DNA of 52,337 bases from positions 1 to 52,337 of IMG/VR virus record IMGVR_UViG_3300035698_016849. One strand, written 5' to 3'. Source of the DNA: a virus. Shown piece after piece: positions 9,057 to 46,914 of this stretch. The translations under genes and the position numbers were made by a program. Each line of letters begins with the position of its first letter. Within the stretch, counting starts at the first letter, position 1. The notes below the pieces were generated by a model that worked only from the letters and a program-made list of their open reading frames with translations, was not told the origin of the DNA and did no database searches.

Positions 9057-9218
9057 TTATAAATTGTATGCAATACATTCTTTTATTTCTTGCTCGTTTA
9101 ATAAATTACTATCTAATTTTGTTATGCCGTGATGTTCTTTTATATCCTCTATTGTGTCATTATCATAGCCTAAACAGTCAGTTAAATAATTGATTATCAT
9201 TTTTGATGTTAGTTTCAT
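9057..9218 (-). CDS. Hypothetical small protein (53 aa)
   Basis: The protein is MKLTSKMIINYLTDCLGYDN followed by an acidic helix (TIEDIKEHHG). Its start overlaps the stop of 9215-9415 by ATGA and its stop lies just before 8765-9046, so it fits the operon exactly. Function unknown. Confidence 0.6.
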   Translation of the reverse strand: MKLTSKMIINYLTDCLGYDNDTIEDIKEHHGITKLDSNLLNEQEIKECIAYNL

Positions 9219-9415
9219 TTTGCGCCTGACTTTTTTATTGTGATTACTGAATAATTGAGATTGATGTCAACAGTATCAAACATATCCGCTTGCACTTCCA
9301 TTAATGCAACTGTTTTTTCGGGCTCATTATAACACCGTGCAATATTGTCGATAGTTTCATTTCTTGTTAAATTAATTATCTCGTTTTCATCTTTATATCT
9401 TTTAGTATATTCCAT
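9215..9415 (-). CDS. Hypothetical small protein (66 aa)
   Basis: The protein begins MEYTKRYKDENEIINLTRNE and contains TIDNIARCYNEPEKTVALME, which could be a short helix-turn-helix. GAGGTATTT is the ribosome site. It is among the first genes of the leftward operon, where small regulators or host-takeover proteins are common. Confidence 0.65.
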   Translation of the reverse strand: MEYTKRYKDENEIINLTRNETIDNIARCYNEPEKTVALMEVQADMFDTVDINLNYSVITIKKSGAK

Positions 9416-9425
9416 AATAAATACC

Positions 9426-9512
9426 TCAGATAAACATAATAACAGTTACTAATAATAAGAACCCTATAAACGCAACAGATAAACATTTTTTTAAGTCTAC
9501 ATAATTATTCAT
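9426..9512 (-). CDS. 28-aa single-span membrane peptide
   Basis: The translation is MNNYVDLKKCLSVAFIG followed by FLLLVTVIMFI. A short charged N-terminus is followed by about 18 hydrophobic residues up to the stop, so the peptide should insert in the inner membrane. GAGGGG lies at good distance before the ATG. An in-frame ATG 18 codons upstream lacks a ribosome site. Being first in the early operon, it may be a host-modifying or superinfection peptide, but that is inference. Confidence 0.55.
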   Translation of the reverse strand: MNNYVDLKKCLSVAFIGFLLLVTVIMFI

Positions 9513-9572
9513 GATAACCCCTCTTGTTTGTGTTCTGTTTATGTGGTTTGTTTGTTCTTGCTTCATGAGTAG

Positions 9573-9601
9573 AGCATAACATAATTAAAGATAAATAACC
9601 A
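9573..9601 (-). promoter_or_regulatory. Candidate leftward promoter with weak -35
   Basis: The minus strand reads ATGTTATGCT, close to the ATGTTATACT shared by several promoters of this window (TATGCT at 9573-9578), but the -35 position has only TGGTTA. It would start transcripts just upstream of the 28-aa peptide gene. Confidence 0.35.
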
Positions 9602-9985
9602 CAATGCAAAGAAAATAATTCAATCTATAACCCATTGATAGATAATAACTTATGAATAGTTATTAATTTATTTTAAAATAGTTTCCGCAATATGCACCAA
9701 GTAATCTGTATTTTATCGCCTTTAAAGCTCCAATTGCGGCTGTTCCTTTACCTTAATACTATAAGAGCGCATATCCTGACCGCCTTGATTAGATTCTGAC
9801 CTGAGCAGATACCTTGCTTCAATCCTTTACATTTATAATACATTGTCGGCTCATTTAAGAGTGTTTAAGGTCTATTAAATAGTATTGTCGGGCTAAGTGT
9901 TAAGATACAAGAAAATCATTTGTTTTACTATGTTTATACATTAATAAATGCTAGATAATAGGAAGTAATCAAGAATAATTAAACA

Positions 9986-10000
9986 ATTCATAAGTCTATG
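9986..10000 (+). repeat. Direct repeat ATTCATAAGTCTATG, copy 1
   Basis: The 15-base sequence recurs exactly at 10069-10083. TTCATAAGT also appears at 24470-24478 and inverted at 9648-9656, always in non-coding DNA. Confidence 0.6.
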
Positions 10001-10068
10001 AGTAACAACGAGATAAATTCAATTCAATTATAATTAATTAAATACTTCATTATAAGAGATTAAAATTG

Positions 10069-10083
10069 ATTCATAAGTCTATG
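10069..10083 (+). repeat. Direct repeat ATTCATAAGTCTATG, copy 2
   Basis: Exact second copy 83 bases after the first. The following bases (ACATAAATTACA-like) also loosely match those after copy 1, so the repeat unit may be longer and degenerate. Confidence 0.6.
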
Positions 10084-10144
10084 GTAGACATGGACATAAA
10101 TTACATTTAATTAATAAAACGTGCCTGTTGATATTATTTTTAAT

Positions 10145-10176
10145 ATTATAAAGCACCCTAATCTACAGGGTGTCAA
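10145..10176 (-). promoter_or_regulatory. Leftward promoter with 20-nt spacer and internal dyad
   Basis: On the minus strand a perfect TTGACA (10171-10176) and a perfect TATAAT (10145-10150) are separated by 20 nt. The spacer carries the inverted repeat CACCCT-N7-AGGGTG. Overlong spacers with central dyads are the hallmark of MerR-family controlled promoters; no MerR gene is visible here, so a host or distant phage regulator would be needed. Confidence 0.45.
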
Positions 10177-10250
10177 TCACGATTAATTATGTATTTAGTA
10201 GTGATTGATTATGTTGATACTCAATGACTTACGGTATGTTATAGCACCGT

Positions 10251-10267
10251 GGGTCACATTTGGCGGA
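10251..10267 (+). repeat. 17-nt direct repeat GGGTC-ATTTGGCGGA, copy 1
   Basis: GGGTCACATTTGGCGGA here matches 15 of 17 bases at 10884-10900. The two copies bracket about 630 nt of non-coding DNA. A weak TTGATA/TATAGC promoter-like pair (20-nt spacing) ends just before copy 1. Confidence 0.5.
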
Positions 10268-10650
10268 TTCTATGAAAACGGTTACGTCAGCTACGACTGT
10301 TCCCAAAAATCAGTTAATAACGGGCGAATATATGGAAATAACGGTAATTATTGAATATTCACTTATATTCCAATATAATGGCAGGAATTCTAGCATTGTA
10401 TATAGGTATATCATAGGAGTAATTAACTACACATATTGTAATTAATTCCGGGTAGAATGTTGAACAAATACAACATATAAATTGTAATTCATCTGGCAAG
10501 GAATTCGGCACATGAGATATAAATGCTGGATAAATACTTCATGAAAGTGGGCTATTATATATTACCGGAAAATCTAATAACTTGTTCTTGAAATAATGTT
10601 TCCTAATTGATTCATATTCAATATCATATATAATCAAATTTGTGTTATTT

Positions 10651-10680
10651 TGTCACAGAAAAGTATACATATTTGTGACA
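10651..10680. repeat. Inverted repeat TGTCACA/TGTGACA
   Basis: Perfect seven-base arms are separated by 16 nt. A related TGTCA/TGACA pair occurs near 23951-23967. It may be an operator or a hairpin in a non-coding transcript. Confidence 0.5.
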
Positions 10681-10740
10681 GAATTATAATATTCCATAAA
10701 TTGGGATAATAGCCGCAGATTTGAAATATAACGAATTATA

Positions 10741-10769
10741 GTGATATTTGCCGCTGCAGCGGGAATCAC
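10741..10769. repeat. GC-rich nested hairpin
   Basis: GTGAT and ATCAC enclose the perfect palindrome CCGCTGCAGCGG (10751-10762). Such a GC-rich cruciform or RNA hairpin stands out in DNA of about 30% GC. Confidence 0.5.
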
Positions 10770-10883
10770 GATATATGAGGATTAATTCTGTACCTATATA
10801 GATGTAAGCTCTAAAGGTTTAGATTTGTTATACCTTCAGTTTAAATGATAACTCAGGTGAATAACGGCACAATTAAGGGCCGG

Positions 10884-10900
10884 GGGTCTTATTTGGCGGA
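10884..10900 (+). repeat. 17-nt direct repeat GGGTC-ATTTGGCGGA, copy 2
   Basis: Second copy of the repeat at 10251-10267, with two mismatches. It ends about 90 bases before the rightward promoter at 10988. Confidence 0.5.
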
Positions 10901-10987
10901 ATGGGCCTCTAAATAAGCTATGTACATATTCATACATATATATGTACAAATTCGTGTAGATATTTATTGGTCTATATTTCCCAGGAC

Positions 10988-11017
10988 TTGACAGTTGTCC
11001 TTCGGCTAAGGTATAAT
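10988..11017 (+). promoter_or_regulatory. Strong sigma-70-like rightward promoter
   Basis: TTGACA (10988-10993), 18 nt, then TATAAT (11012-11017). GGAC and GTCC flank the -35 as an inverted repeat, a possible operator. Transcription should start near 11024 and read the structured leader and the first rightward genes. Confidence 0.8.
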
Positions 11018-11023
11018 TGAACT

Positions 11024-11253
11024 ATCAATCGCACAAGTGGATATTAACTATTAAGTCAACTTGAGGTTGACCGAAGCGGCACATTGTGCGCGAAGTTAGA
11101 TTAACTGGCGAGAAGTGAATTATAAGATTCACAAGCGCAAGGCAATTCGGCCGCGAGGTGAATTTATTCACCGACACAGGACGCATCGACGAAAAGTCTG
11201 CGTAAGCAGCTTTGAGGACGGATTAACAGAGAAAAACTGAATAAGGAGATATC
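11024..11253 (+). ncRNA. Structured leader RNA, copy 1
   Basis: The 230-nt stretch between promoter and first gene is GC-richer than its surroundings and full of small hairpins: GTCAAC/GTTGAC (11055-11071 area), GTGAAT/ATTCAC (11116-11133), GGTGAAT/ATTCACC (11158-11173) and CTGC-GTAA-GCAG (11198-11209), the last with a GNRA tetraloop. The final part (11198-11233 and AACTGAATAAGGAGA) recurs at 11571-11606 and 11729-11743. A cis-acting regulatory leader or a processed small RNA is likely; no known riboswitch is recognised. Confidence 0.6.
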
Positions 11254-11433
11254 ATGAAAAAGGATATGTACACTTTATCGCACATAAAAGACGAAGATAT
11301 CAGAAAAATTTATAAAGCTCTTATGTTTAAAGCGCAGATAAATTGTGATTGTCCTAAATCAAAGACTATAAAAAAGGCCCTAATATTAGGTGACATTTTA
11401 AAGAAATTAGATGAATACAATGAGATTAAGTAA
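11254..11433 (+). CDS. Hypothetical small protein (59 aa)
   Basis: The protein begins MKKDMYTLSHIKDEDIRKIY and has NCDCPKSKTIKKALILGDIL. AATAAGGAGAT precedes the ATG. It is the first gene behind the strong promoter at 10988 and the structured leader, so it should be expressed early and highly. The CDC motif alone does not show metal binding. No family is recognised. Confidence 0.7.
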   Translation: MKKDMYTLSHIKDEDIRKIYKALMFKAQINCDCPKSKTIKKALILGDILKKLDEYNEIK

Positions 11434-11442
11434 GGAACTATT

Positions 11443-11556
11443 ATGAAAAATTGTAAAAAGTATGATTCAGTTGATAAATTTAATGAATATCTATTTGAAC
11501 GTTTCGCCGAGGAATTAACACATCAATTAATACTATTAGGTGTGAAATTTGAATAA
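11443..11556 (+). CDS. Hypothetical small protein (37 aa)
   Basis: The translation is MKNCKKYDSVDKFNEYLFER followed by FAEELTHQLILLGVKFE. TAAGGAACT lies upstream. It follows the 59-aa gene by nine bases and precedes the second leader copy. Function unknown. Confidence 0.55.
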   Translation: MKNCKKYDSVDKFNEYLFERFAEELTHQLILLGVKFE

Positions 11557-11564
11557 TATTAACC

Positions 11565-11743
11565 GAAAGGGCGTGTAAGCGGGCTTGAGGACGAATTAAC
11601 AGAGAACTTTGAAAATATGGAGAGGTGGCACAGTAGCCTGATATTCCTTGGCGGGAACATTGTAAGAGGTGTTAATAGTTCGATTCTATTAAATATTGTA
11701 AATACCAAATTGCCCTTTCCATTTATATAACTGAATAAGGAGA
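11565..11743 (+). ncRNA. Second leader copy carrying a tRNA-like insert
   Basis: The 36-nt motif at 11198-11233 recurs at 11571-11606 and the pre-gene AACTGAATAAGGAGA recurs at 11729-11743. Between them lie 122 extra bases (11607-11728). The insert contains AATAG-TTCGATT-CTATT, an ideal T-arm, and AGGT/GCCT as a D-arm-like stem, but no acceptable anticodon arm. The 3' GCCCTTTCC can pair either with GAAAGGGC (11565-11572) or with GGAGAGG (11619-11625), so two alternative folds exist. I treat it as a structured or tRNA-like RNA, not as a tRNA. Confidence 0.5.
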
Positions 11744-11747
11744 ACTA

Positions 11748-12131
11748 ATGTTTATAAGTAAAAAGAAATTGCAGCTTGAGATTGATAGTCTACGAAAAGA
11801 CTTGCAAAATATATGCACCCATGATGGAGGTATGAAATATACTAATAGGCCAAATATGCCCGGGAAAGATGTGATTTTAGTGAGCTGCATTAAATGTGGG
11901 AAAAGTCTTAAATATACAAGTCACTCAAAATATTGTCAAGAACAATTATCGAAAAAGCCCTATCTTAAAAAAGATAATCAGAAAATTAGCTACGATATAA
12001 TGGAAAAATGTTACTGTGGAGGTAAGTTAGTCGTCAATTATAAAAGCAAATATGGCAGATTGATAAAATGTTCGCGTGACGGTTGCGGATACATGAAATG
12101 GATAATAAACAAATTCGAGGAGATATTATGA
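11748..12131 (+). CDS. Double zinc-ribbon protein (127 aa)
   Basis: A helical N-terminus (KKLQLEIDSLRKDLQN) is followed by Cys and His groups: ICTHDGG, SCIKCGKS and HSKYC, then KCYCGGK and KCSRDGCGYMKW. The last two resemble the topoisomerase-type C4 zinc ribbon. AAGGAGAAC precedes the ATG. The organisation suggests a nucleic-acid-binding protein, though no enzyme domain is present. It ends overlapping the next gene's start. Confidence 0.7.
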   Translation: MFISKKKLQLEIDSLRKDLQNICTHDGGMKYTNRPNMPGKDVILVSCIKCGKSLKYTSHSKYCQEQLSKKPYLKKDNQKISYDIMEKCYCGGKLVVNYKSKYGRLIKCSRDGCGYMKWIINKFEEIL

Positions 12132-16657: not shown

Positions 16658-16687
16658 TTGACAGGTCATTATTAGGTAATGTATACT
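16658..16687 (+). promoter_or_regulatory. Rightward promoter, N18 type
   Basis: TTGACAG with -35 at 16658-16663, 18 nt, then TATACT at 16682-16687. It lies in a 107-nt gap and should start the unit that contains the helicase gene. Confidence 0.8.
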
Positions 16688-18436: not shown

Positions 18437-18610
18437 ATGCTTATACTAATAAATAGAAAATATTTTGCTGTTGACGTTATATTTAAACCTAAAATTTTAG
18501 GTTTAGGTGTCAATGTGGGAAGTAATGCGACTCGAAGAAATCAAATAGCCAATTATTTTATAGATATTACTTTATTATTTTGGACAATAGGATTTGAAGT
18601 CAAATGGTAA
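18437..18610 (+). CDS. Hypothetical small protein (57 aa)
   Basis: The sequence begins MLILINRKYFAVDVIFKPK and ends with the hydrophobic YFIDITLLFWTIGFEVKW, perhaps membrane-associated. TAGGAGCT precedes the ATG and the stop overlaps the helicase gene start. Function unknown. Confidence 0.55.
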   Translation: MLILINRKYFAVDVIFKPKILGLGVNVGSNATRRNQIANYFIDITLLFWTIGFEVKW

Positions 18611-21600
18611 AATTTAATCTAAGCCCTTCTTCTCTGAACGCTTATCTAGAATCTGAACTAGTTTTCTTTTATAATTATATAGAGAAAAGAAAACCTGATA
18701 CAAATGTACCGACTTGCTATAGTTTAGCCGGTAATCTAGTTCATCATATACTAGAAAAAAAATTATCAGCAAATAAAGTATTTTGGTATTTATGGGAACA
18801 GAAAGGTCTTAAGAAACTTAAAGGTTACAATTTTAAAACTCTAAATGGAGATGATTATTATCATGCCGCAGTTCGAGGTTCTAAATTAATGACCAGCAAA
18901 TATGATATTTTACGATGCGAAGAAAAAATCGTCTTTGGATATAATAAAAATATAAAAATTAAAGGTTTTATTGATGTTGTAGCAATCTTGCTGGAGACAG
19001 GAGAATTAGTAATTGAAGATTGGAAGACCAGTTCCAAAATTGATACTTCTGATAATTTTAAAAGACAAGCTTTATTTTATGTTACATTATTTTATAAAAA
19101 ATATAATGTGCTACCAACAAAAGTAATATTTGAATATTTAAAAATAGGACAAGAAAAGGAATATAGTTTTACATTAAAAGAAGTTGAAGATTTTTGGATT
19201 TATATTCATTCCGTAATAAAAGAAATTGAAAGTAAAGGTACAGATATAAATAATTATACTGTAGGTGACATTTCTTCTGGATTCAATGAATATAAACAAG
19301 CTTGTTATTTAGAAAAAGAAAGAAGGAATCCTAAACCAAAGAAAATTGATAATACAGTATATCCTGAAGTAATAGATTCGGGAGATGTAATCTTGAGGCC
19401 AAGTCAAAAAGAAACTGTGGCCAAAGGGGTTGAATTTTTTAAGAATAAGAAAAAGAAATACAATGGATTAATCATTGCCCCTACAGCCTACGGGAAATCA
19501 CATTGTATAGCAAAAATTGCTGAAATGTTAAATGATAACGTATTAGTTTTGCAACCTTCAAAAGAATTACTTGAACAAAATTATAAGAAATTTACAGACT
19601 ATGGAAATAAAGCATCAATTTATTCTGCATCTATGAATAGTAAAGAAATAGGTAAAGTCACATTCGCAACAATCGGCAGCATTGCTAATGATAGCAATTT
19701 CTTTAAACAATTCAAATACGTTCTGGCAGATGAAGCTCACAGGTTAAGCCCTAATGATGGAAAAAGAAGATATAATGTAGAACCGAAACCACAGAGCATG
19801 TATCTGAAATTCTTTAAAGATTTAAATGTTCAAATCCTCGGTCTCAGTATCGCCCCCCATTCTAATATTGAAATTGTAGATTTAAATGAGAAAAAAGGTC
19901 TTTTTCTCTCTATAGAACAAATGTGGAATCACTTCTCATCCAAAAATCTTATACAGTATGACAATGGACTCGAAATATTAAACCTAGAAAATGAACAGGT
20001 ATTTTCGCGTGGGTGGACAGAGAAAAAATTTCAATGGAAAAAATGTAGGAAGCTTATCCGACATCTTGGTTCAAACTCTCAAATGCTTAATATTGCAACT
20101 CAAACAGGTGACATCTCAGCTACTAGAAAACATTCGATATATACAGTTAAACCAAACGAAAGAATCAAAGTTTTACAAAATAAAAGCTGGAATTATAAAT
20201 TTTCATGTAATATTGAATGTGCTAACGCTGACGAATTAAATAATAAAGATATATTACTCGGCGATACTGGAAATAATTGGAATATGATAAAAGAAAAGAA
20301 AATTGACGTTATACAATTTATTAATAAAAATTTATCCAAGAAAAAGTTTTATGTTAAAGTGAAACTAAACAAACAACAGAAAAATGTCATACTTAAATAC
20401 ACACATGGAAATTCAAAAGAAGGTATGGCTTTAAGATGGATTCGAAATAATTATTTACCTTTAGATGTTTTTTTACAATTAGAATTCAAATTAAATTTAA
20501 AATTTCAATATCTTTATTGGGAAGGCTCAAAAAATAAGATGCCGAGAAATTTTTATTTAAGTGACTTAGCTTTTATAATAGGATTATTTTTAGGTGATGG
20601 AGTTATAGATAATAACCGTATGAATATTTATTTGGAAAAATCTCAAATCGATACAATATTGAAAAGAAAAGAAATTTATAAATACTTTCAAGTCTCTTCT
20701 CGAATTCGTCACTCTATCGCTATTTTAGATTTAAGTAATTACCTTATAATGGAAATTTTACGGTCCTTCGATTTATGTTATCATTCACATGAAAAAAGAA
20801 TACCAAATGATTTTTTATTTACATGGGACGATAATAAACGCAAATTACTATTAGAGGGATTAAATTATTCCGACGGGCATTTAGCGGCAACCGCTAGAGC
20901 AGCGAAGAGATATTATTACACTACAACAAGCAAATTGCTGGGACAGCAGATATTATGTCTATTAAGGAGTTTAAATATATCCGGAAATATTCATACGAGA
21001 AAAATGTCACCGTTTGGAGGGATGATAGGTCAAAGGTTGATAAAAAATCAACATCAAAGTTATACAATATCATGGTCTTATTACGCTCAAAATAAAAATA
21101 ATTCAGGTCATAAAGGAAAGCGCAGTAAATACATTCATGAAGATAAATCTTTTAATGAATCCCCAATCAGGAAAATTAATGATGATATTTCTTATGATTA
21201 CATTTATGATATTGAAATGGAAGGTCATCCATCTTTTGTGGCTAATGGTATACTAGTTCACAACACAGCTTCACCTATTCGTCTCAAGTCATCGACATTT
21301 CCTGAACCTCATTCAAAATTGTCTATGCTGACAAGAACTATACCTAGGATATTTAGTAAATTTGTTCATGTGGTCCAAATCAAAGACATGTATGACCAAG
21401 GTTATTTGACACCTTTAACCTATATTGACATAGAATTTGATAGAAATAAATTGCAAGCTAACTCTACAGGGGCTGATTATACCTCAAAATCCATTGAGAA
21501 GCAATTTAAAGCCCAAAAATTGAAGGAAAAGATACTTAAGGCGTGTCAGGAGCACTCTGACCGTAAACATGGCTTAATCTTTGTCTCTACGATTGCTGAG

Positions 21601-21987
21601 GCAGAAGAAATAGCAGAATCACTAGATGAATGTGAAGTATTACATAGTAAAATAAAAAGCAAAGATAGGGCTGATATAATTAAACGGTTTAAATTAGGTC
21701 AAATTAAATATTTAGTAAATATAGGTGTATTAACAACAGGATTTGATTATCCTGAAATTGATATGATAATTATGGCCAGAGCTACGGCTTCTTTAGCATT
21801 ATATATGCAGATTTTAGGTCGAGGCAACCGATTGTTCCCAGGTAAAGAAGATTGCTTGATAATTGACTTAGTGGGTAATCATAAAAAATTTGGAGATATT
21901 AAAGATTTAGAAATAAAAGATATAAATGGTTGGGGCATATATTCGAAAAATAGATTGTTAACTGGTGTCCCTATGATGGATGATTAA
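18604..21987 (+). CDS. RecB-type nuclease fused to SF2 helicase, with intein (1127 aa precursor)
   Basis: Residues 1-240 hold a PD-(D/E)XK nuclease: HH near 47, GFID with Asp124, EDWK with Asp139 and Lys141, and QALFY (155-159), the RecB/Cas4-like arrangement. An SF2 helicase follows: RPSQKE as Q motif, APTAYGKS (Lys298), DEAH (376-379), then motif III split by an intein after GL (414), resuming TASPIRL at 888, and QILGRGNRLFPG as motif VI. Splicing would give a 654-residue enzyme with intact GLTASP. It likely unwinds and trims DNA in phage recombination or replication. Its start overlaps the previous stop. Confidence 0.9.
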   Translation: MVKFNLSPSSLNAYLESELVFFYNYIEKRKPDTNVPTCYSLAGNLVHHILEKKLSANKVFWYLWEQKGLKKLKGYNFKTLNGDDYYHAAVRGSKLMTSKYDILRCEEKIVFGYNKNIKIKGFIDVVAILLETGELVIEDWKTSSKIDTSDNFKRQALFYVTLFYKKYNVLPTKVIFEYLKIGQEKEYSFTLKEVEDFWIYIHSVIKEIESKGTDINNYTVGDISSGFNEYKQACYLEKERRNPKPKKIDNTVYPEVIDSGDVILRPSQKETVAKGVEFFKNKKKKYNGLIIAPTAYGKSHCIAKIAEMLNDNVLVLQPSKELLEQNYKKFTDYGNKASIYSASMNSKEIGKVTFATIGSIANDSNFFKQFKYVLADEAHRLSPNDGKRRYNVEPKPQSMYLKFFKDLNVQILGLSIAPHSNIEIVDLNEKKGLFLSIEQMWNHFSSKNLIQYDNGLEILNLENEQVFSRGWTEKKFQWKKCRKLIRHLGSNSQMLNIATQTGDISATRKHSIYTVKPNERIKVLQNKSWNYKFSCNIECANADELNNKDILLGDTGNNWNMIKEKKIDVIQFINKNLSKKKFYVKVKLNKQQKNVILKYTHGNSKEGMALRWIRNNYLPLDVFLQLEFKLNLKFQYLYWEGSKNKMPRNFYLSDLAFIIGLFLGDGVIDNNRMNIYLEKSQIDTILKRKEIYKYFQVSSRIRHSIAILDLSNYLIMEILRSFDLCYHSHEKRIPNDFLFTWDDNKRKLLLEGLNYSDGHLAATARAAKRYYYTTTSKLLGQQILCLLRSLNISGNIHTRKMSPFGGMIGQRLIKNQHQSYTISWSYYAQNKNNSGHKGKRSKYIHEDKSFNESPIRKINDDISYDYIYDIEMEGHPSFVANGILVHNTASPIRLKSSTFPEPHSKLSMLTRTIPRIFSKFVHVVQIKDMYDQGYLTPLTYIDIEFDRNKLQANSTGADYTSKSIEKQFKAQKLKEKILKACQEHSDRKHGLIFVSTIAEAEEIAESLDECEVLHSKIKSKDRADIIKRFKLGQIKYLVNIGVLTTGFDYPEIDMIIMARATASLALYMQILGRGNRLFPGKEDCLIIDLVGNHKKFGDIKDLEIKDINGWGIYSKNRLLTGVPMMDD
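19846..21264 (+). other. Intein with LAGLIDADG homing endonuclease (473 aa)
   Basis: The intein occupies residues 415-887. It starts with Ser1 (SIAPHSNIEIVD) and ends VANGILVHN before Thr+1. Block B is seen as SATRKHSIYTV, block F as YDIEMEGHPSFV. Two endonuclease blocks are present, IIGLFLGDG and LLEGLNYSDG, so the homing nuclease looks intact. It sits in helicase motif III, a highly conserved spot, which favours homing and makes loss difficult. Confidence 0.9.
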
Positions 21988-23529: not shown

Positions 23530-23555
23530 GTCTTCTTCTACTAGAAGAAGAAGAC
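23530..23555 (+). terminator. Stable hairpin, possible terminator or attenuator
   Basis: GTCTTCTTCT pairs perfectly with AGAAGAAGAC across a six-base loop. What follows is AATTAAATAATT and not a clean T-run, so termination is uncertain. It lies in the leader between the 23368 promoter and the 23656 gene. Confidence 0.4.
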
Positions 23556-24025: not shown

Positions 24026-24055
24026 TTGACAGTTCTCTATTTTGTATGTTATACT
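24026..24055 (+). promoter_or_regulatory. Rightward promoter, N18 type
   Basis: TTGACAG (-35 at 24026-24031), 18 nt, TATACT (24050-24055) followed by ATAAGTA. It reads into the orphan IS605 right end at 24099 and the 30-aa zinc-ribbon gene. Confidence 0.8.
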
Positions 24056-24098
24056 ATAAGTAGAGTTGAAAACAAAAACACTTACCAGATTATTCAAA

Positions 24099-24196
24099 AA
24101 TATATTAACAAAGGGCTTAGGCAAAGTCCTAAAATCTAGTGGAGACATTCGCATTAGCAAAGTCAGTGAAACTAGAATCTCTAACTAAGGAGAATG
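24099..24196 (+). ncRNA. Orphan IS605 right end, omega-RNA-like
   Basis: This stretch matches the last 90 bases of the tnpB gene and its right end (29743-29841) with no transposase attached. The first 20 bases are identical. Stem GGGCTT/AAGTCC is kept (24113-24118 with 24124-24129) while its five-base loop differs (AGGCA here, GGATG there), and stem CTAGT/ACTAG is also kept. TnpB guide RNAs overlap the 3' end of tnpB and continue into flanking DNA. A promoter lies 70 nt upstream, so it may be transcribed as a guide RNA usable in trans. The alternative is a decayed insertion. Confidence 0.7.
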
Positions 24197-24211
24197 TCGA
24201 AGGAGAATACC

Positions 24212-24304
24212 GTGAGCGCAGGTTATTGTGAAGAATGTGAAGCATTTGTTCAAATTGATAGTAATGGTCGATACACATGTATTAGATGTGGTCACACCAA
24301 TTAA
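24212..24304 (+). CDS. Very small zinc-ribbon protein (30 aa)
   Basis: From a GTG at 24212 with AAGGAGAATACC upstream the product is MSAGYCEECEAFVQIDSNG followed by RYTCIRCGHTN. Two Cys pairs 16 residues apart make a minimal zinc ribbon. It sits directly behind the orphan IS605 right end. Confidence 0.6.
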   Translation: MSAGYCEECEAFVQIDSNGRYTCIRCGHTN

Positions 24305-28659: not shown

Positions 28660-28692
28660 TAAGTATATTATAAGTTGATAAAAAAGAGTTCA

Positions 28693-29832
28693 ATGAGAAG
28701 TATAAAAGTAAGAATATATCCTAGCAATATACAGAAGAAACAACTAGAACAGTTTTTTGGTTGTGCCCGTTGGATATATAACAGAGCGTTAGCTTTGAAA
28801 AAGTCGCGCTATGAACAATATAAAGATAATTTATCTATTTATGAAATTTCCAAGATGATTACATTTTGGAAGAAAACAGAAGAGTTATCTTGGTTAAGTA
28901 TTGCACCTTTACAGAGTCTAACACAAGAACTATTTCATTTAGATAAGGCTTATCAGGCATTCTTTAAAAAGCAGACTAAATTTCCTAGGTTTAAAAGGAA
29001 ATCTAATAAGCAATCTATAACAGTAATGCAAAATGTATTGGTAAAAGATAATAAAATAAGATTTCCAAAATTAGGATTTATTAAATGTAAAGGACTTAGG
29101 AAATTTGAAGGTAAGATTAAATCTGCAACATTAACAAAGACTCCTAGTAATCAATATTTTATTTCATGGTGCGTAGATGATATCCCATGCGAACAGAAGC
29201 CTAACACAATAATAAATCCAATTGGAATTGACTTAGGAATTAAGGATTTTATGGCCACGTCAGATGGAAATAAAACCTCGAACCCGAAATACATAAAACC
29301 ATTGGAAAATAAGATTAAATATTATCAGAGGAAATTAGCTAAATGTCAGAAGGATAGTAATATTAGGAAGAAGAGAAGACTTAAGATTGCTAGAACCTGG
29401 AATAAGATTAACAATAAAGAGAAAGATTTTTTACATAAGTTATCACATAGTATAGTCAAAAATCACGATTGTATCTGTGTTGAGAACTTGAACGTAAAAG
29501 ATATGTTACAGAGTAAGCATTTGGCAAAAGAAATTAGTAGATGTAGCTGGGCAGAATTTGTGAGACAACTTGAGTACAAATCTGAATGGTACGGAACTCA
29601 CTTCATAAAAGTAAATCCTGCATATACATCTCAAGATTGTAACGTTTGTGGATTTCGGAAAGATGATTTAACATTGCAAGATAGAACTTGGATATGTACT
29701 AGTTGCGATGAGATGCATGATAGAGATATCAATGCAGCAAAGAATATATTAACAAAGGGCTTGGATGAAGTCCTAAAATCTAGTGGAGAGATTGACGTTA
29801 GTCAGCTCTGCGAAACTAGAATCTCTAAATAA
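28693..29832 (+). CDS. tnpB: TnpB RNA-guided nuclease (379 aa)
   Basis: An N-terminal helix-turn-helix/WED region (MRSIKVRIYPSNIQKKQLEQ) leads to a split RuvC domain: GIDLGIKDF, CVENLNVKDM and HDRDINAAKNI, so catalytic Asp, Glu and Asp are all present. A zinc ribbon lies between the last two (CNVCG and CTSC). TnpB cuts DNA next to a TAM using an omega RNA from its own right end, and so keeps the element in the population. The ATG at 28693 is preferred over a TTG six codons upstream. It looks intact and not like the nuclease-dead TldR type. Confidence 0.92.
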   Translation: MRSIKVRIYPSNIQKKQLEQFFGCARWIYNRALALKKSRYEQYKDNLSIYEISKMITFWKKTEELSWLSIAPLQSLTQELFHLDKAYQAFFKKQTKFPRFKRKSNKQSITVMQNVLVKDNKIRFPKLGFIKCKGLRKFEGKIKSATLTKTPSNQYFISWCVDDIPCEQKPNTIINPIGIDLGIKDFMATSDGNKTSNPKYIKPLENKIKYYQRKLAKCQKDSNIRKKRRLKIARTWNKINNKEKDFLHKLSHSIVKNHDCICVENLNVKDMLQSKHLAKEISRCSWAEFVRQLEYKSEWYGTHFIKVNPAYTSQDCNVCGFRKDDLTLQDRTWICTSCDEMHDRDINAAKNILTKGLDEVLKSSGEIDVSQLCETRISK

Positions 29833-29841
29833 GGAGAATAT
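29743..29841 (+). ncRNA. Probable omega RNA / IS605 right end of the tnpB copy
   Basis: The last coding bases of tnpB and its right end can fold into GGGCTT/AAGTCC, AGAGATT/AATCTCT and CTAGT/ACTAG stems. This is the position of omega RNA in known TnpB systems, whose guide is the flanking sequence to the right, here the start of the protease gene. The orphan copy at 24099 shares this layout. Confidence 0.65.
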
Positions 29842-29843
29842 CA

Positions 29844-31493
29844 GTGAAGTTTGATAAAGCATTGAATCAGAATGAAGTTCAAGATTTTGTAGATAATGTA
29901 CTCGAAAATTCCAAAGTAGAGTTAGTTACAGCAGAAAGTGAAAAAAATGAGTTATTCCGTATAGCTAAAAAGAAAGGTATCATAGCCAAAGGCTCTCAAG
30001 ATTTAGCCTTATTTAAAACTATATATGCTTTTACTGATAAAGTTAACGATAATAATATAGTTTTACCGGAAAAACCTTTTTTAAGAGCGTTCCCTACAAT
30101 CGTTATGAAGCCAGTGACAAGGGCTCATCACAGAAAACAAATAGTTGGAGTATACTTTGATTATGTATATCAAGCTAAAACAAAAACTGCAATAGTATAT
30201 GGAGTATTTTTTAAGAATATTTTTCCTAAATATTGGAAAGAAATGCAAAAATATATAAAACGAGGACAACTTAAATCCTCATATGAAATATGGTTTGATA
30301 AAGACAAAGCAGAAAAAATGTCTGACGGTTCAACTAAGTTTTGGTCAATGGAAATGGCAGGAGGAGCATTATTACTTGATGACCCTATAGCGTATCCAGA
30401 CCAAGAACCTGCATCATCTGATGCTAGAGTTTTAGCAATCGCAAAAAAACAAATCACTGATGCATCTAATGTTGGATTTATAACAGCATTTCAAAATCAA
30501 GTAATTTCAGAAGCTAAAGAGGAAGTATCTGCAGCTCCACAACCTGAAAATCCAGAAGATGGACCAGTAAATCCAAAGATTCTTCCTTTTAAATTAAATT
30601 GTTTAGAATGTAATAGTCCATTACAATATGGAACTATTGAAAATCTTTCCAAAGAATCAGCAACAGTAACATGTACATGTGGTACTAGGTATTTATTAAA
30701 ATTCGCCAAACCAAAGCCAAATCTTGTAAGGAAACTTCCGTTAATTATAGCAGCGAAAGTTGGATGCCCTCAATGTCTAGCTATAAATTATTATCATTAT
30801 TTCACTAAACATGAATCTGGTCCTAAACCAATGACATGCAAAAGATGTGGATTAAAATTTCCTGTTGTTAATCCAACAGATGTGGATAAATTAGCAGTAG
30901 CAGAGATAAAAGAAATAAAAAGTAAAATTAATAAAGTTAATTTAGCGAAAGCTAACATTAGGGAGGACGACATGAAAAAATTAAATTATGCAGCGTTAAG
31001 AAAAGCTGCAGTGATAATTAGAGATTTGAGACAAAATCTTGAGTTATCTAAGGAATCGAAACAGCAGGAGCTTTCTTTTGCATCAAAACAAAAGAATCGT
31101 CAGCAGAATTTGACGCGTAGAGCAATTCAAAAATTTCTGACGGCAACAGAAGCTCTAAAATCTTCAAAAATGAACATAGCAAAAGCTAAGAAAAACAAAG
31201 ACGGCGAAATGGAATTGCATAAGCTTAATGCTATTAAGTTAGTTGAAAGAAAAACTGAACTTGGTTATGATTATGTGAAAGAACAAGGTATTACAGATGA
31301 GCAATTAGTAAGTGATAAAGACTTTGCAATCGCAAAGCTTCAGAAAGATAATGACGAATTAACAGAAAATCAAGACTCAGCCACTATACCAAAAGATATG
31401 ATACTGGCTAGTAAAGACAGAGTTACAAAAGTGGGCGGATATTATACTGACCCAGAGAAAAAAGAAAAAGTTGACGGATTAACGTTTAAATAA
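29844..31493 (+). CDS. Capsid maturation protease fused to zinc ribbons and scaffold-like tail (549 aa)
   Basis: The first 200 residues look like a prohead serine protease: VTRAHHRKQIVGV (His95/96) and GQLKSSYEIWF (Ser145/146), then GGALLLDDPIAYPDQEPA. Two C4 zinc ribbons follow (Cys253, 256, 277, 279 and Cys308, 311, 332, 335), and the last 200 residues are helical and charged as in scaffolds. The protein would guide capsid assembly and then cleave. The zinc ribbons in the middle are unusual. GTG start with AAGGAG provided by the IS605 right end. Confidence 0.7.
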   Translation: MKFDKALNQNEVQDFVDNVLENSKVELVTAESEKNELFRIAKKKGIIAKGSQDLALFKTIYAFTDKVNDNNIVLPEKPFLRAFPTIVMKPVTRAHHRKQIVGVYFDYVYQAKTKTAIVYGVFFKNIFPKYWKEMQKYIKRGQLKSSYEIWFDKDKAEKMSDGSTKFWSMEMAGGALLLDDPIAYPDQEPASSDARVLAIAKKQITDASNVGFITAFQNQVISEAKEEVSAAPQPENPEDGPVNPKILPFKLNCLECNSPLQYGTIENLSKESATVTCTCGTRYLLKFAKPKPNLVRKLPLIIAAKVGCPQCLAINYYHYFTKHESGPKPMTCKRCGLKFPVVNPTDVDKLAVAEIKEIKSKINKVNLAKANIREDDMKKLNYAALRKAAVIIRDLRQNLELSKESKQQELSFASKQKNRQQNLTRRAIQKFLTATEALKSSKMNIAKAKKNKDGEMELHKLNAIKLVERKTELGYDYVKEQGITDEQLVSDKDFAIAKLQKDNDELTENQDSATIPKDMILASKDRVTKVGGYYTDPEKKEKVDGLTFK

Positions 31494-44481: not shown

Positions 44482-46914
44482 ATGGCTCAAAATTTTTATC
44501 ATGCTAATACTGGACTTGCTACCGTAACTGAAACCTTAAATTCAGATTCATATATAATATTGAATAGGTCAACTGAGACTATTGATAGTGATTCTACTGT
44601 TACAGAACAAACTCAAGAAGTACTTAATTCAGATACCGATATTATTGTAACGTCTACTGAAAATATTAATTCTGATACGGTTATATTAACTGATAGACCG
44701 ACAGAGGAAATAAATTCGGATTCGACCATTCAAGTAATTGATATTTTAGAAGAGATAGATTCAGATTCAACTATAGTAACCATAAATACAGAGACTATAG
44801 ATTCAAATTCGGCGGTCACAGTTCAAACATTAGAAACTCTAGATTCTGATTCATCAATATCAGGAACCTATGAACAAACTATTGATTCTGATGTTGATAT
44901 AGTAGTCCCCAGCACTGAAATTCTAGATTCTGATTCATTAATAATTCTAGGTAGAGAAACCGAAACTCTAGATTCTGATTCATCAATATCAGGAACCTAT
45001 GAACAAACTATTGATTCTGATACGCAGATTTATCTTACAGATGCCAAACTTTTAAATTCTGATTCGACCATTACCGAACAGACATTAAGAACACTGGCAT
45101 CCAATGTGACTATAGATGTTTCAGGAATAACAGATATAGCAATATCAGGAAATACAATGTATCTGGTTGAGCATAGCGACCCTGCAGTTTTGTGGGTAGC
45201 AGATATTGATAATTCAGATGGACCTCAATTTACAAAGCACACCTTAGATGAAAGTGGAGAAGGCTATAAGTATCCAAATGCATTAGCCTTAAACGAAACA
45301 TTTAATATAGGTTATATCGCTACTGATGAAGGAAAAGTATGTTCATTTGATTTGGATGCAGTAGGTCTAAGAGATGAAATAGATTTAGAAGATACTGATA
45401 GCTTAACATCTATTGATTGTTTAGAGGATTTCGATAAAGTGTTTATCGGTACAGAAAACACAGAATCTGAATTTTATACCATAGACAACGCACCTTCTAA
45501 CTTAGTTAATAATAAATTGACTTGGGCATCTACAACATTTGAATTATTTAACAATATATGCTCATGGATTCATGGAAAAATAATAAATTCTGATTTCAGA
45601 TTTGTTCAGAATATTTCAAATAGCATAAACACCCATTTTGCCTTTTTGAAATATAATTACACAGGCATGGCCCCTTTAGGACTAGAAAACTTAGTAGTTA
45701 AACTTGACGGGGTATCAATACCAGATGTACTTTTGAACACTGTTAAAGTTACAAGAACAGCAGATTCTACTATGAGAGCAGATTTTGTTTTGCCTAGATA
45801 TTTCGACAAACCAGATTATGATGTTGATGGTAATTATTATCAGATATCTAATAATAATGTAGTAGAAGTATTGTTTAATGACAAGCAACTATTTATAGGT
45901 AGCATTGAGACATATGTCAATTCTGCGGATTCAGAATCAATTGCAATATCTTGCAAAACATCTAGGACATTAGCTTCTGAATATGCTAAACACACAGTAA
46001 ATTTACCCATACCATCGCTTAATGAACAAATAAATCCTTATCATATTCAAAATATATCAGGAATAGAAGTTCGTAATCCTGTAACAAATGATGACGATGA
46101 AGATAATCCAGATTTTTATAGGGGAATTGAAGTAGACTTAGGAAACAGAACAATTGAGAGAGGCGCTCGGCATTATGTCATGAAGTCTTTAACTGAAAAG
46201 CAACTAGAAACATTTAACCCTGAACAAAATGTGACTTATTTTTGGCATTTACGTTATGGGTATGATGTACTGAAGCGAGTTGGCTACACTAGATATTATC
46301 TTGGCTCATCTTTAAGCGGTTTAGGTTCTGTAGTTTTAAGCCGCGTTAAAGTTGGCTATTTTACTCAGAGAATATGGGAAAGTAGCACCTCAAGTATAGG
46401 AACATATAGAAAAGGCAGTGCCCCTTATAAAGCCGTAAGCGCGCGCAGCGGAGAGTATCACTCAATGCCAAGATGGGTAGACAAGGAAGACGGACTCTAT
46501 ACAGTGCAAAATAATTCACATGATTATACTGTATGGGCTAGGAAAGTAGGTTACGTTGAATATGAAAAAATGTTAAATATAAATGGAGACATAGCACCAA
46601 TTACAACTGCAAGTATCGCATTGACGATAGATGCATTATTATATTATAATTTACATTTATTAACAAGATTAAATGTAACAAATACAACTCAAGCGAATAT
46701 TTATAAGAATTCAAAAGGATTCCCTGTAGCAGTAAAAGAAATGGTAATTGATTTCAGCACTATGTTAGTTAATTTAACTTGCGATAATCAACAATCGCAA
46801 GATGAGCTCGATGAATTAGATGATAGAATCTCAACTGAACCAAACGAAGTTGAATATAGAGATATTAGAGCTTGGCATAAATGGGATTTGGCAACAGGTA
46901 AACTCGTATATTAA
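44482..46914 (+). CDS. Tail hub-like protein with N-terminal SDS repeats (810 aa)
   Basis: Residues about 10-205 contain 13-14 units of 14-15 aa with the core E-T-L/I-D/N-SDS-x-I. A propeller-like part follows (TDIAISGNTMYLVEHSDPAV, then GYIATDEGKVCSFDLD). From about residue 400, LVVKLDGVSIPDVLLNTVKV and VEVLFNDKQLFIGSIETYV resemble the start of siphovirus tail hub proteins, and VKEMVIDFSTMLVNLTCDN matches their end. The fusion of repeats, propeller and hub is unusual. Role: tail tip assembly and host contact. Confidence 0.65.
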   Translation: MAQNFYHANTGLATVTETLNSDSYIILNRSTETIDSDSTVTEQTQEVLNSDTDIIVTSTENINSDTVILTDRPTEEINSDSTIQVIDILEEIDSDSTIVTINTETIDSNSAVTVQTLETLDSDSSISGTYEQTIDSDVDIVVPSTEILDSDSLIILGRETETLDSDSSISGTYEQTIDSDTQIYLTDAKLLNSDSTITEQTLRTLASNVTIDVSGITDIAISGNTMYLVEHSDPAVLWVADIDNSDGPQFTKHTLDESGEGYKYPNALALNETFNIGYIATDEGKVCSFDLDAVGLRDEIDLEDTDSLTSIDCLEDFDKVFIGTENTESEFYTIDNAPSNLVNNKLTWASTTFELFNNICSWIHGKIINSDFRFVQNISNSINTHFAFLKYNYTGMAPLGLENLVVKLDGVSIPDVLLNTVKVTRTADSTMRADFVLPRYFDKPDYDVDGNYYQISNNNVVEVLFNDKQLFIGSIETYVNSADSESIAISCKTSRTLASEYAKHTVNLPIPSLNEQINPYHIQNISGIEVRNPVTNDDDEDNPDFYRGIEVDLGNRTIERGARHYVMKSLTEKQLETFNPEQNVTYFWHLRYGYDVLKRVGYTRYYLGSSLSGLGSVVLSRVKVGYFTQRIWESSTSSIGTYRKGSAPYKAVSARSGEYHSMPRWVDKEDGLYTVQNNSHDYTVWARKVGYVEYEKMLNINGDIAPITTASIALTIDALLYYNLHLLTRLNVTNTTQANIYKNSKGFPVAVKEMVIDFSTMLVNLTCDNQQSQDELDELDDRISTEPNEVEYRDIRAWHKWDLATGKLVY
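44521..45100 (+). repeat. Tandem SDS-repeat coding region
   Basis: Repeats of roughly 42-45 nt encode the ETxDSDSxI units. Two stretches of 60 identical bases (44833-44892 and 44962-45021) lie 129 nt apart and in frame, so part of the array was duplicated recently and can change length by recombination. Confidence 0.75.

Follow-up and report, generated by a model that had tools for sequence, protein, structure and literature searches.

Based on comparisons of its sequence, we identified positions 24096 to 24199 of a 52,337-base IMG/VR record (the whole of this stretch is referred to as the window) as a predicted standalone omegaRNA, that is, a guide-RNA scaffold left from a TnpB element of the IS200/IS605 type after the loss of its tnpB gene. 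On balance we favour, by a modest degree, the reading that the resident TnpB could use this orphan RNA in trans, directed at alleles without the insertion. Only two omegaRNA copies were found in the window, the orphan and the resident copy; the resident copy covers the 3' end of an intact tnpB gene (28693-29832) together with the right end. In a comparison within the window, 24096-24198 matched 29740-29842 with 83% identity over 103 nt (E about 1e-26), in agreement with the original prediction that 24099-24196 repeats the tnpB 3' end and right end. The accompanying statement that no tnpB is attached to the orphan was also borne out. The similarity of the orphan begins 16 nt before hairpin 1, within what would be the last codons of tnpB. 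The orphan scored 110.7 and 80.7 bits with two covariance models (R1 and R2, respectively), both of which had the orphan sequence included. No Rfam family was matched by the omegaRNA. As the right ends of relatives close with the pseudoknot strand (GTTCA, TGTCA, TATCA and others), the elements were extended to 24199 and 29843. These right ends also shift the predicted orphan guide, which had been read from directly after 24196 (GTCGAAGG...), to a start at 24200 or 24201 (AAGGAGAATACCGTGAGCGC). The features are collected in Table 1.

Table 1. Predicted features of the orphan and resident loci in the window, and omegaRNAs lacking tnpB in other virus records
Location	Strand	Feature	Basis or remark
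24026-24055	+	Phage promoter TTGACA-18-TATACT with extended -10 TATGTTATACTATAAGTA; predicted transcription start near 24062	One of five near-identical promoters
24096-24199	+	Orphan omegaRNA scaffold (predicted TnpB guide-RNA scaffold without tnpB)	83% identity to 29740-29842
24112-24130	+	Hairpin 1 (7 bp), whose loop AGGCA at 24119-24123 forms one pseudoknot strand
24135-24176	+	Hairpin 2 (TCTAGT/ACTAGA) with inner hairpin 24144-24164; invariant GTGGAG...GAA.C..GAA motif; one inner pair broken (C.A)
24178-24193	+	Terminal hairpin of the right end (TCTCT/GGAGA)	Fold; position from comparison with relatives
24195-24199	+	Right-end pseudoknot strand TGTCG, pairing with 24119-24123	Homologous to the pseudoknot of ISDra2 omegaRNA (PMC10097598)
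24200-24219	+	Predicted orphan guide AAGGAGAATACCGTGAGCGC, boundary +/-1 nt	Right-end boundary from relatives
24212-24304	+	Possible 30-aa zinc-ribbon ORF (CxxC...CxxC), GTG start, AAGGAG at 24200	Sequence
28675-28679	+	TTGAT directly 5' of tnpB, candidate TAM/left boundary	Inferred; identical to the ISDra2 TAM (PMC8612924) and to TTGAT at the G022-type empty site
28693-29832	+	Intact TnpB, 379 aa; RuvC D/E/D and zinc-finger cysteines kept	Alignments; ISDra2 TnpB 8bf8, E 2e-67
29740-29843	+	Scaffold of the resident omegaRNA, which overlaps the 3' end of tnpB; hairpin 1 at 29756-29774, pseudoknot formed by 29763-29767 and 29839-29843
29844-29863	+	Predicted resident guide GTGAAGTTTGATAAAGCATT (+/-1 nt at the boundary), coinciding with the start codon of the gene that follows	Sequence
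G023:52157		tnpB-free omegaRNA	Left-end-like hairpin; 90% to a resident omegaRNA
G046:103326		tnpB-free omegaRNA	99% to a resident omegaRNA; tnpB stub upstream
G049:100792		tnpB-free omegaRNA
G022:58454		tnpB-free omegaRNA	The only such site compared with relatives lacking the omegaRNA
G022:32227		tnpB-free omegaRNA	Hairpin 1 lost; decaying, 5'-truncated
G020:62690		tnpB-free omegaRNA
G045:18912		tnpB-free omegaRNA	Weak hairpin-1 stem; match between loop and right end retained

The RuvC D/E/D and zinc-finger residues are invariant columns in both protein alignments (A1 and A2), and the resident TnpB has all of them. Its nearest relative was found in L011, with 53% amino acid identity, and the phage carrying L011 has nothing but TnpB in common with the window. 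At 29830-29846 the right end of the tnpB element gives the next gene an AAGGAG ribosome-binding site, and the GTG start of that gene falls on the first predicted guide bases. In L011 the omegaRNA right end GGAAGCAAGAACCCCCTGCCTTTAGGCATGGGGAGATGTCA is tandemly duplicated downstream of tnpB (2620-2700).

The orphan and resident copies fold alike. In the orphan, 20 of the 21 model pairs form, as do all five pairs of the terminal hairpin. In the structure of ISDra2 the right end pairs with the loop of hairpin 1 (PMC10097598), and corresponding pairs were found here as GGATG/TATCA in the resident copy, AGGCA/TGTCG in the orphan (4/4 pairs formed) and GGACA/TGTCA in L011. The orphan combination covaries with that of the resident copy and with those of relatives, for example GGAAC/GTTCA, GGAGT/ACTCA and GGCTA/TAGCA. 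All four pairs form in each of the 22 sequences compared, which hold 12 distinct combinations of loop and right end, and none of 100,000 shuffles was as good; in a few of these sequences the right-end 5-mer was picked partly through its complementarity, and sequences with no clear hairpin 1 were excluded. The changed hairpin-1 loop is thereby predicted to be the pseudoknot partner of the right end, where two changes match it. The original prediction had described conserved stems with a changed loop between them. The stems indeed hold (GGGCTT/AAGTCC and CTAGT/ACTAG are unchanged, with the intervening sequence changed), but the loop is not free, as it covaries with the right end. Judged by these predicted pairings, the orphan has lost none of the structural elements that a working omegaRNA has, and the pseudoknot of hairpin 1 with the right end is among those retained. 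The fold energy of the orphan was -20.5 kcal/mol, no better than that of random mutants, and partly different pairings were preferred when the whole 249-nt leader was folded.

Viral TnpB loci were gathered using an alignment of nine phage proteins. The covariance-model search with both copies that had been proposed was run with L011 added, and it located the RNA at about 28 further places in other virus loci, nearly all of them 3' ends of tnpB genes. In the three-sequence alignment 98.4% of the cells were paired, with eight double-change cells, which none of 500 shuffles equalled. In an alignment of 32 sequences 90.7% of the cells were paired and 182 double-change cells were counted, against 49 in shuffles and at most 46 with the partners slid; this alignment was fitted to the model and its numbers lean towards it. 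A free alignment gave the motif C..GTGGAG ... GAA.C..GAA in all 12 sequences, and the orphan retains every invariant base. Strong covariation among the relatives thus marks the predicted omegaRNA structure as real.

Between the orphan and the resident copy, 29 of the 30 pairs of the structure including the pseudoknot are kept, and three double changes are seen. When the 18 changes were placed at random, P was 0.005 for the pairs kept and 0.004 for the double changes (joint P about 2e-4), and with the coding similarity held at the observed level the joint P was 5e-5. Two-copy covariation on the nested stems of the resident copy alone was weak (P about 0.04) and relatives were therefore brought in; the structural case is strong only when the relatives and the pseudoknot are included. 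Coding constraint on the divergence of the two copies was not detected (P 0.24) and was rejected as an explanation for what is conserved. Since the tail of TnpB generally shows weak conservation, this negative result gives no date for the loss of tnpB. The suggestion of selection on RNA structure is supported for the time during which the two copies diverged. Such selection may predate the loss of tnpB, which two-copy covariation cannot date, and it is therefore no proof of selection on the orphan as such. Several queries found no close relatives of the phage.

A phage promoter precedes the orphan, and a small zinc-ribbon ORF, for which no Pfam or PHROG match was found, follows it. Five near-identical promoters are present in the window (at 16658, 23368, 24026, 24515 and 51753) against 0.08 expected (shuffle P 0.004). 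One of them is the TTGACA-N18-TATACT at 24026-24055, correctly predicted to end 44 nt upstream of 24099. The promoter is credible; earlier assigned to the orphan as its own, it may equally be that of the zinc-ribbon ORF. If 24070-24199 were removed, the leader of this promoter would be about 20 nt, similar to the 22-nt leader of the promoter at 16658, and the promoter may thus be older than the insertion. Upstream of the orphan no left end was recognisable (best match P 0.58), and a candidate left-end remnant (TTGAAAACAAAAAC compared with TTGATAAAAAAGAG) was no better than chance. The 52-kb record, possibly a fragment, contained no TnpA (Y1_Tnp). The promoter-rich intergenic region also holds an inverted repeat with a 10-bp stem at 23530-23555 (GTCTTCTTCTACTAGAAGAAGAAGAC), which is terminator-like on the minus strand.

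Elsewhere in the window, the region 9073-11748 has no ORF of at least 80 aa and no Rfam match, and possibly encodes a structured phage RNA. It is rich in hairpins near 11000-11240 and contains the unit GAGGACGRATTAACAGAGAA, repeated at 11193-11233 and 11566-11606. A tRNA-like sequence (GGAGAGG ... GTTCGATTC ... CCTTTCC) is seen at 11618-11722, where ARAGORN calls no tRNA. A helicase with a PD-(D/E)XK nuclease domain (18604-21987) is interrupted by an intein with a LAGLIDADG-like domain, and seven degenerate repeat copies with a period of about 42 nt lie at 44617-45063, inside an 810-aa ORF with no family match.

No target of the orphan guide was found in the window. The flank of the orphan had been proposed as a query for host or rival phage genomes, and the exact 18-mer AAGGAGAATACCGTGAGC of the guide was absent from IMG/VR as scanned. 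Likewise, no empty site for the orphan was found among the records compared.

Additionally, we searched for omegaRNAs away from tnpB by running a broader covariance model over 85 virus records, which gave 75 matches at E <= 0.01, most of them at tnpB 3' ends. Ten TnpB proteins were compared with the 1.6 kb upstream of the non-adjacent matches; in the case of G023:52157 we instead inspected the sequence and ORFs upstream of it in L038/L115. Seven further omegaRNAs without tnpB were found in these records, of which five retain both hairpin 1 and a complete pseudoknot. A weak and apparently false match in L105 was dropped, G073:94851 was rejected as it has its own TnpB, and G049:4-92, at a contig end, was not counted.

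At G022:58454 a perfect sigma-70 promoter (TTGACA-17-TATAAT) precedes the omegaRNA, and the end of its -10 box is 7 nt upstream of hairpin 1. The relatives L118 and L119, which are 92% and 88% identical to G022 in the downstream DUF2828/vWA gene, have the same promoter and no omegaRNA. The sequence GTGTCA-A-GCGGATAGGACTATGC of G022 aligns with TTGAT-GCGGACAGGACTATGC in L119 (15/16) and with TTGAT-GCAGGTAGGACTATGC in L118. TTGAT is the TAM of ISDra2 (PMC8612924) and is followed here by the guide match, so the standalone guide of G022 is predicted to match TAM-flanked alleles without the insertion. Since the flank is orthologous, the guide match itself is expected, and it is TTGAT, occurring about once in 1000 by chance, that adds evidence. 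The sequence to the left of TTGAT also differs; the site is therefore not a clean empty site, and deletion or recombination has brought promoter and omegaRNA together. Upstream of the DUF2828/vWA gene in L117, L118 and L119, beside tRNAs, the promoter of the G022 omegaRNA precedes a different short sequence.

In the mechanism that we propose, the orphan would be transcribed from the phage promoter, and the resident TnpB, whose gene lies 4.5 kb downstream, would load the orphan omegaRNA in trans. The bases that follow the right end (AGGAGAATACCGTGAGC...) would aim TnpB at insertion-lacking alleles of the orphan site in related phages, with AGGAGAATACCGTGAG beside a TTGAT-like TAM as the predicted target. 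Cleavage of the empty allele and recombinational copying would then keep and spread the guide-only element in a way that is like homing, with a possible benefit to the phage or to the element. It is conceivable, though we stop short of leaning that way, that free-standing omegaRNA genes with promoters of their own are maintained by phages as trans guides, and that one TnpB would thereby serve several sites as part of a guide-only homing-like element or as a multi-guide weapon against relatives lacking the insert.

The main rival to the trans-guide reading is that the orphan is a recent fossil: a second IS605/TnpB element, diverged from the resident one, would have been cut down to its right end and left as a functionless stub next to a promoter that belongs to the zinc-ribbon ORF. 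The structure would then have been kept while tnpB was still attached, which the two-copy covariation, blind to the date of the loss, would allow, and the broken pair in the orphan fits with such a history. Fossils of this kind are exemplified by the fresh copy in G046 with its tnpB stub and by the decaying, 5'-truncated omegaRNA at G022:32227. However, the piece retained here is close to the minimal omegaRNA unit and has all defining features intact, and a real phage promoter precedes it. Useless DNA also tends to be shed from phage genomes, which again speaks against a stub. Taken together, we judge a fossil to be unlikely, though a serious competitor.

It is improbable that the orphan is a non-autonomous IS605 element (PATE or MITE), whose ends would be moved by TnpA in trans and whose guide function would be incidental. 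The orphan does have a right end with no ORF within it, a left-end-like hairpin is seen in the G023 copy, and PATE-like elements with a left end, the last 58 nt of tnpB and a full right end are known (PMC7290912); yet the window is without TnpA, the orphan is without a recognisable left end, and TnpA has no known need of the covarying hairpin 1 and pseudoknot. We give very little credence to the explanation that the orphan serves as a 5' leader or ribosome-binding-site donor for the zinc-ribbon ORF, with the AAGGAG arm of the right end co-opted for translation control. Although AAGGAGAAT is part of the right end and, in the tnpB copy, stands in position to serve the following gene as its ribosome-binding site, a separate AAGGAG for the zinc-ribbon ORF is present at 24200, beyond the scaffold, and a leader would not need the pseudoknot covariation that is common to TnpB omegaRNAs.

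Altae-Tran and co-workers reportedly described, in 2021, trans-acting standalone omegaRNAs for IscB, with scaffold copies away from the nuclease gene. These are similar to the orphan in having the scaffold apart from the nuclease gene and differ in belonging to IscB rather than TnpB; to our knowledge they were not in phages. No description of standalone TnpB omegaRNAs in phages was found in the literature searched, the coverage of which was incomplete. The closest structural model is the IS200/IS605 TnpB-omegaRNA (reRNA) of ISDra2, whose scaffold (about 116 nt, as compared to 104 nt here) likewise spans the 3' end of tnpB and the right end and comes with hairpin 1, hairpin 2 with an inner stem, a terminal hairpin, a pseudoknot of loop and right end, and a guide taken from the 3' flank (PMC8612924, PMC10097598). 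Unlike ISDra2, the orphan scaffold stands alone behind a phage promoter with no tnpB attached. The PATE-like IS605 elements of Halanaerobium hydrogeniformans also consist of the last part of tnpB and a complete right end with no ORF, but they keep a left-end hairpin, which was not recognised at the orphan; portions of the paper describing them do not mention a guide-RNA function (PMC7290912). In the TldR-gRNA loci of phages and prophages a TnpB-type guide RNA is likewise used by a phage, and one tldR locus with a broken gene may still supply gRNAs in trans (PMC13418256). In contrast to the nuclease-dead TldR, the resident TnpB keeps its RuvC residues, and the orphan RNA is 4.5 kb away from it. 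The IS605 omegaRNA and the PATE-like right-end element (PMC7290912) are the known forms, of which the orphan is a stand-alone, phage-promoted variant beside an intact TnpB.

With seven other tnpB-free copies in 85 records, one of them with matching TAM-flanked alleles that are without it, a single odd repeat becomes a class. The ancestor of Cas12 is a relative of TnpB, and the separation of guides from the nuclease gene is the step from which CRISPR-like multi-guide systems arose. Phages with one TnpB and extra stand-alone guides would be natural intermediates, and they would make the action of omegaRNA in trans between phages directly testable.
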